A DNA stretch of 64,000 nt from an uncultured bacterium (GTDB lineage Bacteria; Bacillota_I; Bacilli_A; RFN20; CAG-826), in the NCBI GenBank assembly GCA_949285455.1, contig CASDXP010000001.1, positions 1 to 64,000 of the forward strand, in the 5' to 3' direction. Positions 40,332 through 49,190 of this stretch are shown here, in pieces. The translations under genes were made by a program, and so were the position numbers. The notes below the pieces were generated by a model. The model did not search any database. It saw only the letters and a list, made by a program, of their open reading frames with translations, and had not been told where the DNA came from. The first letter of the stretch is position 1. Every line of letters starts with the position of its first letter.

Positions 40332-42932
40332 ATGAGTAACAAAGTTATTATCGTCGATGGAAATTCTTTGCTTTTTAGAGCCTATTACGCGACCGCTTAT
40401 CCTGGTGCGAACATCATGCGCACAAAGGAAGGAATTGCCACGAATGCGATATTTGCCTTTTCTAATATGATTTTAAAAATTGTCGATAAATTAAAAGATG
40501 AAGATAAAATATTCGTCGCTTTTGACACGGGTAAGAAGACATTTAGACATCAAGAATTAGAAACTTATAAAGCGAACCGCAAACCCGCTCCAGAAGATTT
40601 GATCGTTCAATTTCCTATCGCACGCGAACTACTTAAAAGTTTAGGTATTTATACTTTCGAAGAAGAAGGCTACGAGGGTGATGATTTAGCTGGTTCAGTC
40701 GCCATAAAAGCCGCAAATGCGGGATATCAGACGATAATTTATACTTCTGACCGCGATTTTTTACAATTAGTCGATGACAAAGTTGAGGTAGATTTGCTCA
40801 TCAAAGGTATGAGCGATATTCGTATAATGCACGAAGCAAATGTCGTTGAAACTTATGGCTTTACGCCAAAGCATATCATCGATTTTAAAGGACTTAGAGG
40901 CGATAGTAGCGATAACTTGCCAGGCATTCCTTCAATCGGGGAAAAGACTGCTCAAAAACTCATCCAAACTTATGGTACTCTAGAAAATATTATCGAAGCC
41001 GCTAATAAAGGAGAAATAAAAGGCAAGGTCGGTGAGATGATAAATCTTTATCAAGAAGATGGTAGATTATGTAAAAAACTTGCTATCATCAAAACAGATT
41101 TAGATTTGCCTTTTTCTTTAGAAGATTTAACTTACGATGGCTACTTATTCGAAAAAGTTAGCGAATTCGCTAACAAATACGAATTAAAAACTTTTCTCAC
41201 TAAATTGCCAAAAAAATGGCAACATAGCCAAAGCGAAAATTTAAATTATGAAGAACTTGTTGATACTAGTGAGATAACTTTATCAGATCATATTTCCTTC
41301 GTCTTAGCAAGCGATTATACAAATTATCATAAAGATGATGTTTTTGGCTTAGCTTTTACGAGCGAAAATAAAAATTATTACATCAGTATCGATAATCTTA
41401 AAAAAGATGAAAAATTAAAGGCATATTTAGCAGATGAAAAGATTTTAAAATCTTTTTACGATTATAAAGCTAGCAAATGCGCTCTAGCGCGTTACGGCAT
41501 CGATGTCAACGGTAACGGCTTCGATTTGATGCTCGCTTCTTATCTGCTCGATTCTTCTTCGCGCGGAGACCTCGATAGCGTCTATGCTTCAAGAGGTATT
41601 TCTCTTGACATCGAAGAAGAAGAAATGAGCATATTTAAATCGCTAAACGTCCAACGTTACATCAAAGCATCTTTTCATCTCCACCGCTTGATACCCCAGG
41701 TTCTAGTGGAATTATCTAAACTTAATTTAAAAGCTTTATTTTACGACGTGGAACTTCCACTATCGGACATCCTTGCAAGGATGGAAATAGAAGGTATTGA
41801 AGTTAACGCTAAAACGCTAGATGAACTCTCTACTATTTTCAAAGCAAAATTAGAAGAAGATGAAAAAATAATCTTTGAAATCGCTGGCCACCCCTTCAAC
41901 ATTTCTTCACCGAAGCAAGTCGCTGAAGTTCTTTTCGAGCAACTACAAATTGCGAAAGGGAATAAATCTAGTTCAACTTCTAGCGATGTCTTATTAGGTT
42001 ATGCAAGTGAGCATGAAATCGTAAGACGTATCTTAGATTATCGAAAATATGCAAAACTTATAAGTGCTTACACAGATGGATTAAAAAATCATATATTTGC
42101 TGATCATAAAATCCACTGCATCTTCAATCAAGCTGTCACGACGACAGGTAGATTATCATCTTCAGATCCTAATTTACAAAATATTGCTGTAAGAGATGAA
42201 GATGGTAAACTTATTCGAAAAGCTTTCTATTATGAAGATGAGGATTTATATCTATTATCTTTAGATTATTCGCAAATAGAACTAAGAATTCTTGCGCACT
42301 TCACCCATTCGAAAGCTTTGATCGACATCTTTAAAAATGATGAGGATATTCACGAAGCCACAGCTAAAAAAATATTTCATAAAGATGAGATAACTGATTT
42401 AGAAAGAAGGAAAGCTAAAGCAGTTAATTTTGGTATCGTCTATGGTATTTCTGAATGGGGTTTATGCGAACAATTAGGCATTTCTCGTAAGGAGGCTAGT
42501 GACATCATCTCTTCTTTCTACCTTGCCTTCCCTGAAATTAAAACTTATCTCACTAAGGTCGTCGAACAAGCCAATGAACTCGGTTACGTCGAAACTATCT
42601 TAGGGAGAAGACGTTACATTCGTGAAATTCATGACACTAATTATCAAAGAAGAGAATTCGCTAAACGCGCAGCGATGAACGCTCCTATTCAAGGAAGCGC
42701 TGCTGATCTTATCAAAGTAGCGATGATCAAAGTCGATGAATTGTTGAAAAAAGGTCAATATAAGACTCGTCTCGTTTTACAAATACATGACGAATTATTA
42801 TTTAAAATTCCTAAAGAAGAAGTCGATATATTGCCAAAATTAATTCAAAAAGAAATGGAACACGCATTGAACTTAGATGTGCCACTAAAAACATCTTTAG
42901 GAATCGCTAAAAGTTGGGATGAGGTGAAATAA
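40332..42932 (+). CDS. polA: DNA polymerase I
   Basis: Repair and Okazaki-fragment processing polymerase. The N-terminal 5'-3' exonuclease (VDGNSLLFRAYYA, YEGDDLAG, TSDRDFLQL, GDSSDNLPGIPSIGEKTA) is complete; the middle 3'-5' exonuclease domain lacks the DxE motif (reads SDYTNY) and is probably inactive, as in the Bacillus enzyme; the family A polymerase carries LDYSQIELRILAHF, RRKAKAVNFGIVYG and LQIHDELL. 866 residues. It starts 2 bases after dnaE ends and continues into the fpg-coaE gene. Confidence 0.97.
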   Translation: MSNKVIIVDGNSLLFRAYYATAYPGANIMRTKEGIATNAIFAFSNMILKIVDKLKDEDKIFVAFDTGKKTFRHQELETYKANRKPAPEDLIVQFPIARELLKSLGIYTFEEEGYEGDDLAGSVAIKAANAGYQTIIYTSDRDFLQLVDDKVEVDLLIKGMSDIRIMHEANVVETYGFTPKHIIDFKGLRGDSSDNLPGIPSIGEKTAQKLIQTYGTLENIIEAANKGEIKGKVGEMINLYQEDGRLCKKLAIIKTDLDLPFSLEDLTYDGYLFEKVSEFANKYELKTFLTKLPKKWQHSQSENLNYEELVDTSEITLSDHISFVLASDYTNYHKDDVFGLAFTSENKNYYISIDNLKKDEKLKAYLADEKILKSFYDYKASKCALARYGIDVNGNGFDLMLASYLLDSSSRGDLDSVYASRGISLDIEEEEMSIFKSLNVQRYIKASFHLHRLIPQVLVELSKLNLKALFYDVELPLSDILARMEIEGIEVNAKTLDELSTIFKAKLEEDEKIIFEIAGHPFNISSPKQVAEVLFEQLQIAKGNKSSSTSSDVLLGYASEHEIVRRILDYRKYAKLISAYTDGLKNHIFADHKIHCIFNQAVTTTGRLSSSDPNLQNIAVRDEDGKLIRKAFYYEDEDLYLLSLDYSQIELRILAHFTHSKALIDIFKNDEDIHEATAKKIFHKDEITDLERRKAKAVNFGIVYGISEWGLCEQLGISRKEASDIISSFYLAFPEIKTYLTKVVEQANELGYVETILGRRRYIREIHDTNYQRREFAKRAAMNAPIQGSAADLIKVAMIKVDELLKKGQYKTRLVLQIHDELLFKIPKEEVDILPKLIQKEMEHALNLDVPLKTSLGIAKSWDEVK

Positions 42933-42934
42933 TT

Positions 42935-44314
42935 ATGCCTGAACTACCAGAAGTTGAAACGATTAAAAAAGCCTTGGAATCACTCATCATTGGAAAGAAA
43001 ATTATATCTATAGATATATTGAAGCCAAAACTCATCAAAAGTGATTTAGATTCTTTTAAAACTAAACTCATTGGTAAAACATTTTTAAAGATGTCTCGAC
43101 ACGGTAAATATTTATTTTTTCATCTAGATGATGAACTAGTGTTAGTCAACCATCTTAGAATGGAAGGAAAATATCAATTTAAACATCCGCGTGACGAAAT
43201 CGAATCGCACGCACGAATCATCTTTCATCTCGACGATGGAAACGCTCTCATCTATCGCGATTCAAGAATGTTTGGCATGTATTATTTAAGCGATGAATTG
43301 CATTATCAAAATCTCGATTTCGTCAAAAAAGTTGGTAAAGAACCATTTTTCTTAGACGCAAAAGAATTATTTAATAATATTAAAAAACATCCAGAGACCG
43401 AAATAAAAACTGTCTTATTAAATCAAGAAGTCATAGCTGGACTTGGTAATATCTACGTCGATGAAACACTTTTTAAAAGTAGGATAAATCCTTGTAGCAA
43501 AGCTAAATATCTAACATTAGATGACGTAAGCGTCATTTTAAAAAACGCAATCGAGGTATTGAACGCTGCTATATTAAAAGGTGGTTCGACGATTAAAAGT
43601 TATAAGTCAATCGACGATGTCGATGGTCACTTTCAAACTGATCTTCTCGTCTACGGTAAGGCAAATGAGCCCTGTCCAAACTGTGCTAAACCATTAAAAT
43701 TTATGAAAATTAATGGAAGAGGCACGACTTATTGTTCGCGTTGTCAAAAGAAAATTGGACAAAAATTTATCGCTGTAACTGGTCTATATGGTTCTGGTAA
43801 ATCTAAAGTCACTCATCTATTTGAAGATAATGAATATAAAATCTATTCATGCGATAGTATCATTAAAGAACTTTACGATGAATTAGAAATACAAGATAAA
43901 GTTTTAACTTTATTTAATATCGAACAAATCGATTTTGTTCGCATTCGTAATGCGATATTTAAAGATGAAAAATTAGATAAGAAGTTAAAGAACATACTTT
44001 ATCCAGCACTCAAAGAAAAAATCTTAAAAATCTTTAAAAAACATGAGGAGAATGTCGTCATCGAAGTACCGCTACTTTTCGATGCCAAGATGGAAAATAT
44101 GTTCGATGTTGTCATCGGCGTTACTCTTCCTGACGATAGACGAGAAAAATTCATCATAAATCGCGACAAATCATTAGATTATAAAGCTTATTATGACGCT
44201 CATAATCATTTTTGCGACCACTTGAAAGAATGCGATTATGTTATTACGAATAATAAAGATGAAAAACATCTCGCGAAAGAAGTTTTAAAAATTAAGGAAG
44301 ATTTAGACATTTAA
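42935..44314 (+). CDS. Fusion: formamidopyrimidine-DNA glycosylase + dephospho-CoA kinase
   Basis: A 459-residue fusion of MutM/Fpg and CoaE. Residues 1-270 are a full Fpg: catalytic N-terminus MPELPEVET, the H2TH region GLGNIYVDE and a zinc finger with Cys 247, 250, 267 and 270. Only 12 residues later a P-loop GLYGSGKS (283-290) starts a dephospho-CoA kinase domain that runs to the end (YSCDSIIKELYD, EVPLLFDAKMENMFD, REKFIINRD). polA-mutM-coaE are neighbours in B. subtilis, so loss of the intervening stop is a simple origin. Oxidative base repair and the last step of CoA synthesis are thus physically joined. Its end overlaps dnaI by 12 bases. Confidence 0.93.
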   Translation: MPELPEVETIKKALESLIIGKKIISIDILKPKLIKSDLDSFKTKLIGKTFLKMSRHGKYLFFHLDDELVLVNHLRMEGKYQFKHPRDEIESHARIIFHLDDGNALIYRDSRMFGMYYLSDELHYQNLDFVKKVGKEPFFLDAKELFNNIKKHPETEIKTVLLNQEVIAGLGNIYVDETLFKSRINPCSKAKYLTLDDVSVILKNAIEVLNAAILKGGSTIKSYKSIDDVDGHFQTDLLVYGKANEPCPNCAKPLKFMKINGRGTTYCSRCQKKIGQKFIAVTGLYGSGKSKVTHLFEDNEYKIYSCDSIIKELYDELEIQDKVLTLFNIEQIDFVRIRNAIFKDEKLDKKLKNILYPALKEKILKIFKKHEENVVIEVPLLFDAKMENMFDVVIGVTLPDDRREKFIINRDKSLDYKAYYDAHNHFCDHLKECDYVITNNKDEKHLAKEVLKIKEDLDI

Positions 44315-45187
44315 TGGGCCAAAATCAATAATTTTTGCGCTACTTAATAATTTTTTAATTTGTAAAGATCTAGCTTTCGAAGCGTAGTTAAAATTATACA
44401 TATTCGCAATATCTTCTGCATCGAATTCACTGATGAAAACAGTTAAAGTTTCCTTCTCTTTTCTTGCTCTTAACAAAGGAATTAAAATATTATCTCTTAA
44501 CGTCTCATTTTTATATTCTTCACCGAAGTCATACAAGAAAAGAAATGGCACATCCACTAATTTATTAAAAATAAATTCAAAACGTTCTTTTTCATTAAAA
44601 TATAAATTTGCTAATTTACGACATTGTTTAGGAAAATTGATGACGCTTGCTAGATAATGATTTCTTGCGGCGAAACGATTATAGACGCCGATCAAAGTAT
44701 CTAATTTGCGTTTGCTCGCCCCTCCTATTAGATAGAGCCAATTCGCACTATTTTTACTTTTGCTAAAATCTATGAAAGCTGTTAGTAATTCCTTCGTCGC
44801 TTTATCATCATTTAAATTTTCTTTACTCAAGCTTAGTAATTTATCATCGAAATCTCTAATTTCGTAAAATGAAGTCAATTTATCATTTTTTTCTTTTAAA
44901 GCGCAGCGAGAAATATTTCTTTCGACGTAATGACCTTGTAATTCTAATTCGATAGTCGAACCTTTGACATCTTTTGGGCATTTATTAAGTCCTGGACAAT
45001 TCTTGCAGATAAGATAGTCGTCGTAACTTGTAAAAATTGTACTTAAATTATCCAAGATAATTTGTTCATCGATACCTAAATCGCTCAAACGATTTAGAAA
45101 AGTTTCATCCCCGAGCATTTGATCGAGTAGTTTCTTTTCTTCTTCTTTTAAACTTGCTACATCTAAAGTAAGACGTAATTTATCCAT
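44303..45187 (-). CDS. dnaI: Primosomal helicase loader DnaI-like, degenerate Walker A
   Basis: DnaI loads the replicative helicase with DnaB/DnaD. The N-terminal domain has a Cys cluster (CKNCPGLNKC at 61-70 and C95) like the zinc site of DnaI. The C-terminal AAA+ domain is recognisable from LYLIGG and LFLYDFGEEY, but the Walker A reads GGASKRKL (155-162) instead of GxxGxGKT, so nucleotide binding is probably impaired or altered. Position directly after dnaB supports the identity. A GAGGGATAA site precedes the ATG. Confidence 0.8.
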   Translation of the reverse strand: MDKLRLTLDVASLKEEEKKLLDQMLGDETFLNRLSDLGIDEQIILDNLSTIFTSYDDYLICKNCPGLNKCPKDVKGSTIELELQGHYVERNISRCALKEKNDKLTSFYEIRDFDDKLLSLSKENLNDDKATKELLTAFIDFSKSKNSANWLYLIGGASKRKLDTLIGVYNRFAARNHYLASVINFPKQCRKLANLYFNEKERFEFIFNKLVDVPFLFLYDFGEEYKNETLRDNILIPLLRARKEKETLTVFISEFDAEDIANMYNFNYASKARSLQIKKLLSSAKIIDFGPLNV

Positions 45188-46682: not shown

Positions 46683-48530
46683 ATGGACGATAATGCTATT
46701 TTAGAGCCGAGGAAGATGTATGAAAGCAAAGTAAGAGTCGACCTCCTCGATTGTGCATCTAAATATTTTGATGATGTTTTGAAACGTTCTGGTGTGAGCC
46801 AAGACGAAAATGAAATGCTTTCTAAACAATATGAAAAAAATGCCGCGGATGCGGAAGAAAAAAATAAAAAATTAAGTGGCGCGAAGGGGCTAAGAACTTT
46901 CTTTATCATCTTAGCTATTGCTTTTGCAATTGCTGGTGCGGTCGGCGTTTATTTCATCGTCGAATTAAAAGATTTGACGATCGGGTTAAGTTTAACTATT
47001 CCAGGCTTCATCCTCGCCCTAGTGTTTTTCATTTTAATCTTCGTCTACTGTAATAAAAAAGTAAAAGAACATCAAAAAGCCAGCGACGCTGCTAATAAGA
47101 AAAGAGATGAATCTTACCAAGCAGTCGTCAGTCAAATTAGCCCCCTACTTTATTTATTCGATGAGGCGATGCCGACAGAAATTATTCGTAAAAGTGTCCC
47201 TCTCATCCAAATTGATGATTATTTCGATATCAAAAAATTCGATTATATGCACGAAAAATATGGCTTCTTAGATAACGATTCAGAGACCTCTTCGACACTC
47301 TTTGTCATGTCTGGTTCGATCGTGGGTAATCCATTTCTCATGTTAAGAAATCTCAATATGAATATGGTCGATAAAATCTATACGGGTACTTTACCTATCA
47401 CTTGGACGGAAAGAGTTTACGACGGAAACGGAAGATATAGGACAGTTGTAAGGAGCCAAGTTCTCACCGCTTCTATTAGAAGACCTGCTCCTGATTATAG
47501 TACTTACACTCACCTCGTTTACGCTAACGACGCTGCTCCTGATTTAAGCTTTTCTAGACGTCCCTGTGGAATAGACGTCAAAAACGAAAAAGCTATCGAT
47601 AAATTCGTGGAAAATAAGGCTGATGATATTAGAAAATATGCTGATAAAGCTTTGAAAGAAGGTAAGAAATTTACCCCGATGACCAACGAAAAATTTGAAG
47701 CTTTATTCGGTGGTTTAGACCGTGATCATGAAGTACAATATCGTCTTCTTTTCACCCCACTCGCACAACAAAATCTCATCGAACTTATCACGAATCCTGT
47801 CCCCTTTGGTGACGATTTTACTTTCATCAAAAGAAAAGAACTTAACTACATCGCTAGCAACCATTCACAATCGTTCGATATTTCTGGCGAACCACGTAAT
47901 TACATTCATTATAATGTCAACAAAACGAAAGAAAATTTCTTAAGTTACATCGATAACTATTTTAAGTGCGTTTACTTTGACTTAGCCCCCTTGCTTTCTA
48001 TTCCACTTTATCAACAAAATAAGCCATTTGAATACATCTATAAGAAGAATTATATGCGTAATTACACATCTTATGATGAAGAAGCTATCGTCAATCATTT
48101 CGATTATCATCGTTTCCTTCACCCATCTAGTGCCACTCGCGCTATTTTGAAAGTCTTATATCCTAATAAGAAAGGTAAGACTGACCAAGTGACTGTAAGA
48201 GCGCATTCTTTCGAAGGTATTCCACGCGTCGAATATGTCACGGTGATGGGAGGAGATGGTCATCCTCACGCAGTTCCTGTCCATTGGACAGAATATCTAC
48301 CTCTCAGCCAAGATACTCCAGTTTCTATCAAGCGTTTCGCCAATTCGCGACATGAATATAATTCACGCCAAAGCGAACTCATCGAAAAATTTGGTAATCG
48401 TTTCGACGCTGAAAGTGCCACTTATAACCGAGGTTACGTCGCATATTTAGCTGAACCAGAGGAAGATAATATCGATAGTGAAATTGATAAACTTTTCAAG
48501 TATAATAAACAAATAGAGGAGGATAAGTAA
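46683..48530 (+). CDS. Two-helix membrane protein, partner of LemA
   Basis: A 615-residue protein of no family I can name with certainty; membrane proteins of the DUF3137 kind are often next to lemA and this may be a distant, longer form. A helical N-terminus (1-70, charged) precedes two adjacent membrane helices (about 71-93 and 100-123) with a short loop, then about 490 residues that are probably cytoplasmic. Within these, TLPITWTERVYDGNGRYR looks like a beta-hairpin, and the C-terminus ends in charged residues. A good AGAGGTGA site precedes the ATG. The stop is 3 bases before lemA, so the two are an operon. Confidence 0.75.
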   Translation: MDDNAILEPRKMYESKVRVDLLDCASKYFDDVLKRSGVSQDENEMLSKQYEKNAADAEEKNKKLSGAKGLRTFFIILAIAFAIAGAVGVYFIVELKDLTIGLSLTIPGFILALVFFILIFVYCNKKVKEHQKASDAANKKRDESYQAVVSQISPLLYLFDEAMPTEIIRKSVPLIQIDDYFDIKKFDYMHEKYGFLDNDSETSSTLFVMSGSIVGNPFLMLRNLNMNMVDKIYTGTLPITWTERVYDGNGRYRTVVRSQVLTASIRRPAPDYSTYTHLVYANDAAPDLSFSRRPCGIDVKNEKAIDKFVENKADDIRKYADKALKEGKKFTPMTNEKFEALFGGLDRDHEVQYRLLFTPLAQQNLIELITNPVPFGDDFTFIKRKELNYIASNHSQSFDISGEPRNYIHYNVNKTKENFLSYIDNYFKCVYFDLAPLLSIPLYQQNKPFEYIYKKNYMRNYTSYDEEAIVNHFDYHRFLHPSSATRAILKVLYPNKKGKTDQVTVRAHSFEGIPRVEYVTVMGGDGHPHAVPVHWTEYLPLSQDTPVSIKRFANSRHEYNSRQSELIEKFGNRFDAESATYNRGYVAYLAEPEEDNIDSEIDKLFKYNKQIEEDK

Positions 48531-48533
48531 TTT

Positions 48534-49190
48534 ATGGCAAATGCACTAGATGAATTAAGTGGTCCAACGATGGAAGAAGGTCGCGATACACGCGTCATTG
48601 CTAAGCAAATACCAGCCACAATTGGCAAAGGAAGTAAACGTTTAGTCGTTTTCCTTTACATCATCAGTTTTGGTTTACTCATCATCAAAAAGAAAAAAAT
48701 CGAAAGCCACTTCTTGCAATTGGAACAAAAAATTAACACGAATGCTTCAGAAATTGATAATTATCTTGAACAACGTGTGGTGATTTTACAAAATGCCGCA
48801 AGATTACTCGATAAGGCGATCGATTTAGATAAGACGACGATGGTAGAAATTGCAAAATATCGTTCCGGTTCTGCAAATAACGAAGAAATCCGTAACGATA
48901 TCGCTACGAAGATGGAAAACATCGGCCATCAAATTAGTGTCGCTTTCGAACAATACCCAGATTTAAAAGCGCATCAAGAAATTGCTGATTGTTTACAACA
49001 AAATTCATATTTGCAACGTGAAATTACCGCCGCAAGAACTGTTTATAATGACACGGTCAATCAATGGAATCACGACGTCAACCAATGGCTTTGGAAACAA
49101 TATGTGGCCGCTAAAGCAGGCTATACAACTCGCATTCCATTCGCTACTTCAAGCGAAATTAGAACGCAAGCTAGACAAGTATTCTTTTAA
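48534..49190 (+). CDS. lemA: LemA family membrane protein
   Basis: A 218-residue LemA protein. One membrane helix (about 35-52) is followed by the helical LemA domain with ASEIDNYLEQRVVILQNA (family form: R-x-dL-x-pnLv), VEIAKYRSG (family: aRs/t) and RTVYNDTVNQWN (family: YN-x-x-V-x-x-fN). The N-terminal 34 residues before the helix are unusually long. LemA proteins have no settled molecular function. A strong GAGGAGG site overlaps the end of the preceding gene; a terminator follows. Confidence 0.9.
   Translation: MANALDELSGPTMEEGRDTRVIAKQIPATIGKGSKRLVVFLYIISFGLLIIKKKKIESHFLQLEQKINTNASEIDNYLEQRVVILQNAARLLDKAIDLDKTTMVEIAKYRSGSANNEEIRNDIATKMENIGHQISVAFEQYPDLKAHQEIADCLQQNSYLQREITAARTVYNDTVNQWNHDVNQWLWKQYVAAKAGYTTRIPFATSSEIRTQARQVFF

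Follow-up and report, generated by a model that had tools for sequence, protein, structure and literature searches.

Fpg/MutM is an 8-oxoguanine/FapyG glycosylase and AP lyase, and its catalytic nucleophile is the amine of its N-terminal proline. Dephospho-CoA kinase, CoaE, is known both as a separate enzyme and as part of larger proteins. Some mycoplasmas have bifunctional HAD-DPCK proteins, according to PMC8721197. Like the protein described here, these consist of two domains, of which CoaE is the C-terminal one, and are found in reduced genomes; their partner is a HAD phosphatase-like domain, whereas ours is a DNA glycosylase. Animal COASY (PPAT-DPCK; structure 2f6r is among the matches to our CoaE half) also has a CoaE domain fused to another enzyme, but there the partner catalyses the reaction just before that of CoaE in CoA synthesis (PMC8721197). 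PPAT-DPCK and HAD-DPCK indicate that CoaE tolerates N-terminal partners. In Mycobacterium tuberculosis CoaE the functional residues include Lys14 of the P-loop, Asp32, Leu114 and Arg140 of the lid, and Arg140 mutants are nearly or fully inactive (PMC3019153, available in part).

We found no earlier report of an Fpg-CoaE fusion in the literature searched, which was mostly papers readable without subscription and did not extend to database annotation. According to a review, the CoaE of phytoplasmas is 'annotated as formamidopyrimidine-DNA glycosylase', and mutM is absent from A. laidlawii (PMC3322544). This confusion in annotation may stem from fused relatives.

The window, that is the whole stretch of 64,000 nucleotides that was analysed, encodes Fpg and CoaE in one frame (Table 1). 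The convergent gene whose end overlaps that of the fused gene is presumably dnaI, judged by its position in the usual gene order alone.

Table 1. Features of the fused fpg-coaE gene and its direct neighbours; positions are those of the window.
Feature	Position	Strand	Basis or remark
polA, directly upstream of fusion, 2 nt gap, unjoined	40332..42932	+	
Fused fpg-coaE gene	42935..44314	+	Single uninterrupted frame starting with ATG, 459 aa plus stop
Fpg/MutM half, residues 1-272	42935..43750	+	Pfam, residue alignment, MutM fold match
Four-Cys zinc finger C247, C250, C267, C270	43673..43744	+	Pfam and alignment
Linker, residues 272-277	43748..43765	+	No in-frame ATG/GTG/TTG
CoaE half, residues 279-459	43769..44311	+	Pfam, NCBIfam, fold match 8dv0
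P-loop GLYGSGKS, residues 283-290	43781..43804	+	Sequence and alignment
D307, aligned with Asp32 of M. tuberculosis CoaE	43853..43855	+	Alignment; role from PMC3019153 (available in part)
F406, in place of lid residue Arg140	44150..44152	+	Alignment; Arg140 role from PMC3019153 (available in part)
Convergent gene, 12 nt overlap with 3' end of fusion	44303..45187	-	No Pfam match

Four Pfam domains were found in the 459-aa protein, all above their gathering scores: Fapy_DNA_glyco (residues 1-115), H2TH (134-222), zf-FPG_IleRS (245-272) and CoaE (279-441). The protein also exceeds the NCBIfam cut-offs for TIGR00577, fpg (281.7 bits, cut-off 203.3), and TIGR00152, dephospho-CoA kinase (73.4 bits, cut-off 65.55). 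The preliminary description had counted 12 residues between Fpg and the P-loop, and this is the distance from the last zinc cysteine (C270) to G283; the free linker is shorter, about six residues, because the CoaE strand predicted by the structure model already begins at residue 278. An assembly or frameshift artefact is ruled out, as the same frame is found in most relatives and in two congeners, whose proteins are 77% and 64% identical.

The Fpg half is complete, as had been claimed from the sequence: all three Fpg domains are present, together with the catalytic and zinc residues. In Fpg the residues with known roles include the N-terminal Pro-Glu, Lys57, Met73/Arg108/Phe110, Asn168, Arg258 and the four zinc cysteines, and the window protein has P2, E3, K58, M76, R111, F113, N172 and R262 in addition to the zinc cysteines. 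The equivalents of Arg108 and Asn168 are kept in 193/193 rows of the alignment used for the trees below, in which Fpg residues are intact nearly throughout. The modelled Fpg half matches the fold of MutM in the MutM-DNA structure 1r2y (Z 36.2, rmsd 1.5, 269 aligned). The fused protein shares with Fpg/MutM (TIGR00577, PF01149-PF06831-PF06827) the family architecture, the catalytic and zinc residues and the MutM fold. The difference is that ordinary Fpg has no domain beyond the zinc finger, whereas the fused protein bears a second enzyme at the Fpg C-terminus.

Structure searches with the full-length model gave only Fpg-superfamily chains among the matches listed, and the CoaE half was therefore folded alone (pLDDT 94.0, pTM 0.89). 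Its best match is the dephospho-CoA kinase of Rickettsia felis, 8dv0 (Z 23.9, rmsd 1.7, 184 aligned). Of the first 19 matches, 18 bear the title dephospho-CoA kinase or CoA synthase, the exception being 1uf9, with the title TT1252. The equivalents of Lys14, Asp32 and Leu114 are present as K289, D307 and L380/L381. The CoaE domain had been described as intact, and this holds for the fold, the P-loop and the Asp32 and Leu114 equivalents, which it shares with ordinary CoaE (TIGR00152, PF01121), but not for the lid, where Arg140 is replaced by Phe and the Gln and Lys columns are changed. It also differs from ordinary CoaE in having no free N-terminus. By descent and fold the C-terminal half is a CoaE-derived domain, and the lid residue lowers the claim of normal activity.

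The assembly to which the window belongs (1,105,726 bases, 21 contigs, 97.21% complete) has one match each to PF01121 and TIGR00577, both in the fused frame; a further copy could lie in the few percent that the assembly lacks. The preliminary description had named two findings that together would speak against a fusion with two working halves, a separate coaE or mutM elsewhere in the genome and inactivating changes in one domain. The profile search of this assembly found neither gene elsewhere; one recognised catalytic residue of CoaE is changed, from Arg140 to Phe406.

In a set of 58 relatives that includes the own genome, 53 gave a match to the whole protein, and PF01121 found CoaE in 49 of the 58. 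These 49 comprise 41 with fused-length frames (437-497 aa), one whose frame is truncated where the contig ends and seven with a separate CoaE gene (G038, G040, G043, G045, G050, G053, G055). In family f4 (G043, G053) fpg is unfused and CoaE is on another contig or far away. No CoaE match was seen in G036 and G048. In a sample of the class, 320 of 395 genomes have CoaE, and at least 84 of the 395, with ten family codes, have the fusion, scored as one stop-free frame over both domains. The numbers of fused genomes per family are at least 40 in f1, 13 in f12, 8 in f3, 7 in f16, 5 in f27, 4 in f26, 3 in f28, 2 in f25, and 1 each in f2 and f19; the search of the relatives adds five more in family f5. 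The breadth check that had been proposed across relatives shows that the fusion is clade-wide and recurrent. Separately, in family f17 of the class sample many genomes with Fpg gave no match to CoaE at E 0.001, and a few gave only weak ones; CoaE loss or replacement is possible there.

Contigs were also scanned for the fusion with a pattern that needs CPxCQ encoded with TAT and that misses the window itself. Among the matches listed, fused records include Secundilactobacillus paracollinoides DSM 15502 (L123) and MAGs titled Erysipelotrichales, Bacillales, Bacilli and Izemoplasmatales. A strict test for the fused state, which classed fused loci cut by contig ends as 'other', was passed by 26 of 118 loci. 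Both TIGR00577 and TIGR00152 are matched by 24/24 fused proteins scanned. A search of a phage collection gave seven records with most of the query covered at 29-33% identity.

We collected 216 loci with both domains. Leaving out 13 with a short domain gave 203, and removing two duplicates from the own genome (L001, L002) and eight exact duplicates gave 193 rows, 89 fused and 104 split, which are a non-random sample of loci. Alignment A2 was made without L170, which contains X, and L198, a near-duplicate; alignment A3 holds the window and 43 of 95 CoaE stretches. Trees were made with FastTree and a quick IQ-TREE run, both weaker than a careful search, and are unrooted, so that changes between the fused and split states are counted and gains of the fusion are not separable from losses. 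On the 193-row tree of Fpg plus CoaE at least 14 changes are needed, 13 of them forced by starred, that is well-supported, branches, while shuffled labels gave a mean of 64. A mixture-model tree of 78 hand-picked rows has 15 changes, 11 of them forced. The state was thus switched repeatedly, with 14-15 changes on the two trees and 11-13 forced by well-supported branches, and one ancient fusion as the sole event is unsupported. The window sits in a clade of 51 rows, all fused, with no reversal seen within it. As judged from these trees, the join is old and stable in the window's clade and has been gained or lost many times elsewhere.

Gene neighbourhood is supported as the source of these events, as the preliminary description had suggested. 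Among the split loci, fpg and coaE share a strand in 111/111 examined, CoaE homology begins at most 60 nt from the fpg stop in 99/111, and the frame is the same in 37/111. We suggest that in the Bacilli gene order polA-fpg-coaE, with fpg and coaE head-to-tail, the stop codon between the latter two was lost or bypassed, giving one frame. Across the class such events would have recurred, and the fusion in the window's clade would go back to a single early one in its ancestor. The product would be an ordinary Fpg with a very short linker and the organism's only known CoaE. Both activities would work in the fused protein, each half would be held by its own function, and the join itself would be close to neutral. 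We consider such a bifunctional protein, formed by stop-codon loss between neighbours and joined nearly neutrally, the probable explanation.

The other junction of the same locus serves as a built-in negative control. Upstream of fpg, polA is found on the same strand in 175 loci (duplicates included) and lies within 60 nt in 151 of these, equally close, yet it is joined in none. Since the Fpg nucleophile is the amine of the N-terminal proline, an N-terminal partner would destroy it, and Fpg can be extended only C-terminally. The fpg-coaE junction would be permissive, and polA-fpg not, because Fpg takes only a C-terminal partner and CoaE tolerates N-terminal ones.

The join could instead be adaptive, with dephospho-CoA, CoA or ATP on the CoaE half tuning Fpg, or with the two halves cooperating at oxidative stress. 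The same join arose several times, it is never reversed in the 51-row clade, and the linker is short and confidently modelled (mean pLDDT of the linker block 86), with a narrow length range: among 50 clade rows measured, the distance before the P-loop is 12 in 33, 9 in 13, 11 in 3 and 13 in 1. The absence of reversal and this narrow range could hint at a constraint on the join. The range may simply follow kinship, however, and is not read as a sign of control between the halves. Adjacency, shared strand and an often shared frame account for the recurrence without any benefit, and split arrangements persist in relatives, of families f6 and f8, that belong to the same taxonomic order. No linker sequence common to independent fusions was seen in the fused loci compared, and the pTM of the full-length model, 0.75, is too low to settle how the domains are oriented. 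We therefore regard an adaptive join as improbable; given recurrence and gene adjacency, neutral joining is the simpler reading.

Two proteins might be made from the gene anyway, by proteolysis in the linker or by internal initiation. An in-frame ATG, GTG or TTG between the last zinc cysteine and the P-loop is found in 14/50 clade rows and in 16/51 others, the latter including some duplicates of clade loci. The linker DNA of the window itself has no such codon, and its roughly six residues are modelled with confidence, which makes separate products here extremely unlikely.

Among the 58 relatives, own genome included, PanK III was found in 47 and AcpS in 50, and CoaD scored over its cut-off in 45, of which 41 also have CoaE. 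CoaBC (TIGR00521) was found in only two of the 58, and a search of the own genome for this profile gave no match. The gene content suggests a salvage-type, shortened CoA route (PanK, CoaD, CoaE), whose last step would be the fused CoaE and which would feed AcpS. Compared with its nearest congener (NG86), the window has dN 0.127 and dS 0.99 in the Fpg half and dN 0.213 and dS 1.67 in the CoaE half; dN/dS of the CoaE half is about 0.13-0.2, a rough ratio since dS near or above 1 is saturated. Both halves are constrained, with more amino-acid change in CoaE than in Fpg. Dephospho-CoA kinase activity is expected from the CoaE half, because the domain is under purifying selection and PanK, CoaD and AcpS co-occur with it.

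The fusion is real and gene order explains it easily; the lid change is the one unexpected feature. At the Arg140 position the window and its nearest congener have Phe and the third congener has Arg. Arg is found at this position in 21/51 rows of the window's clade, compared with 35/38 other fused and 99/104 split rows. The lid Gln column has Gln in 34/38 other fused and 100/104 split rows, and in the clade the commonest residues are Thr and Asn; the Lys column has Lys in 35/38 and 95/104, and in the clade mostly Asn or Tyr. An alignment-free check for the lid motif, with a script too loose for fine lid classes, points in the same direction (12/51 clade, 33/38 other fused, 95/104 split). Since the lid is normal in most of the other fusions, the change is a trait of the window's clade and not of fusion itself.

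The CoaE half of this clade might accordingly no longer be a normal dephospho-CoA kinase, but be weakened, inactive or directed to a new substrate, and be kept because it is welded to Fpg. Besides the changed Gln and Lys columns and the Arg140 equivalent missing from 30/51 clade rows, the CoaE half has diverged faster in the clade (mean identity for Fpg/CoaE 0.463/0.303, compared with 0.411/0.364 for split genes), and the PF01121 score of the window's CoaE half is just 57.5 bits. The P-loop Lys and Asp32 equivalents are nevertheless kept in 89/89 fused rows and 51/51 clade rows, which together with the low dN/dS argues for a working enzyme. The genome has CoaD, PanK III and AcpS, yet no other CoaE was found in it, and the top structural matches are dephospho-CoA kinases. 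The Arg of the third congener also weighs against a loss of function, and by eye part of the lid difference looks like a shift of one or two residues in which Asn, or Asp in the window's genus, takes the place of Gln. On balance, a CoaE half that is no longer a normal dephospho-CoA kinase seems unlikely. A more specific and highly speculative idea is that it became a regulator: ATP and dephospho-CoA would be bound through the kept P-loop and acceptor residues, the enzyme would work slowly with its remodelled lid, and the short linker would pass the cofactor or energy state on to Fpg, which would couple base-excision repair to CoA supply.

The four relatives with CoaD and without CoaE (G002, G005, G006, G027) all lack an intact polA locus in the assembly. 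G002 and G027, like G214 and G039, have no polA, no real DnaE match and no fpg-coaE, and three of these four genomes are rated 96-97% complete. In G006 polA gave no match and dnaE is present by half, while in G005 polA is reduced to its first half. A shared fate of the two halves, read from their linked loss in these six genomes, was rejected, the locus being most likely missing or cut there. In G002, G027, G214 and G039 an assembly gap at the locus most likely explains the joint absence of dnaE, polA and fpg-coaE; genuine loss of the whole block may have occurred.

The locus shows clearly how, in nature, two unrelated enzymes have been joined to each other repeatedly, most likely through gene order. 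Through the clade-wide lid change it also makes it possible to test a dephospho-CoA kinase that lacks the usual catalytic arginine. For annotation there is a warning: coaE or mutM can seem to be missing from such genomes, because a two-enzyme protein gets one label. Elsewhere in the window, the region 46683-49190 (+) encodes a 615-aa protein to which Pfam gave no match, followed directly by a LemA-family gene (48534-49190).
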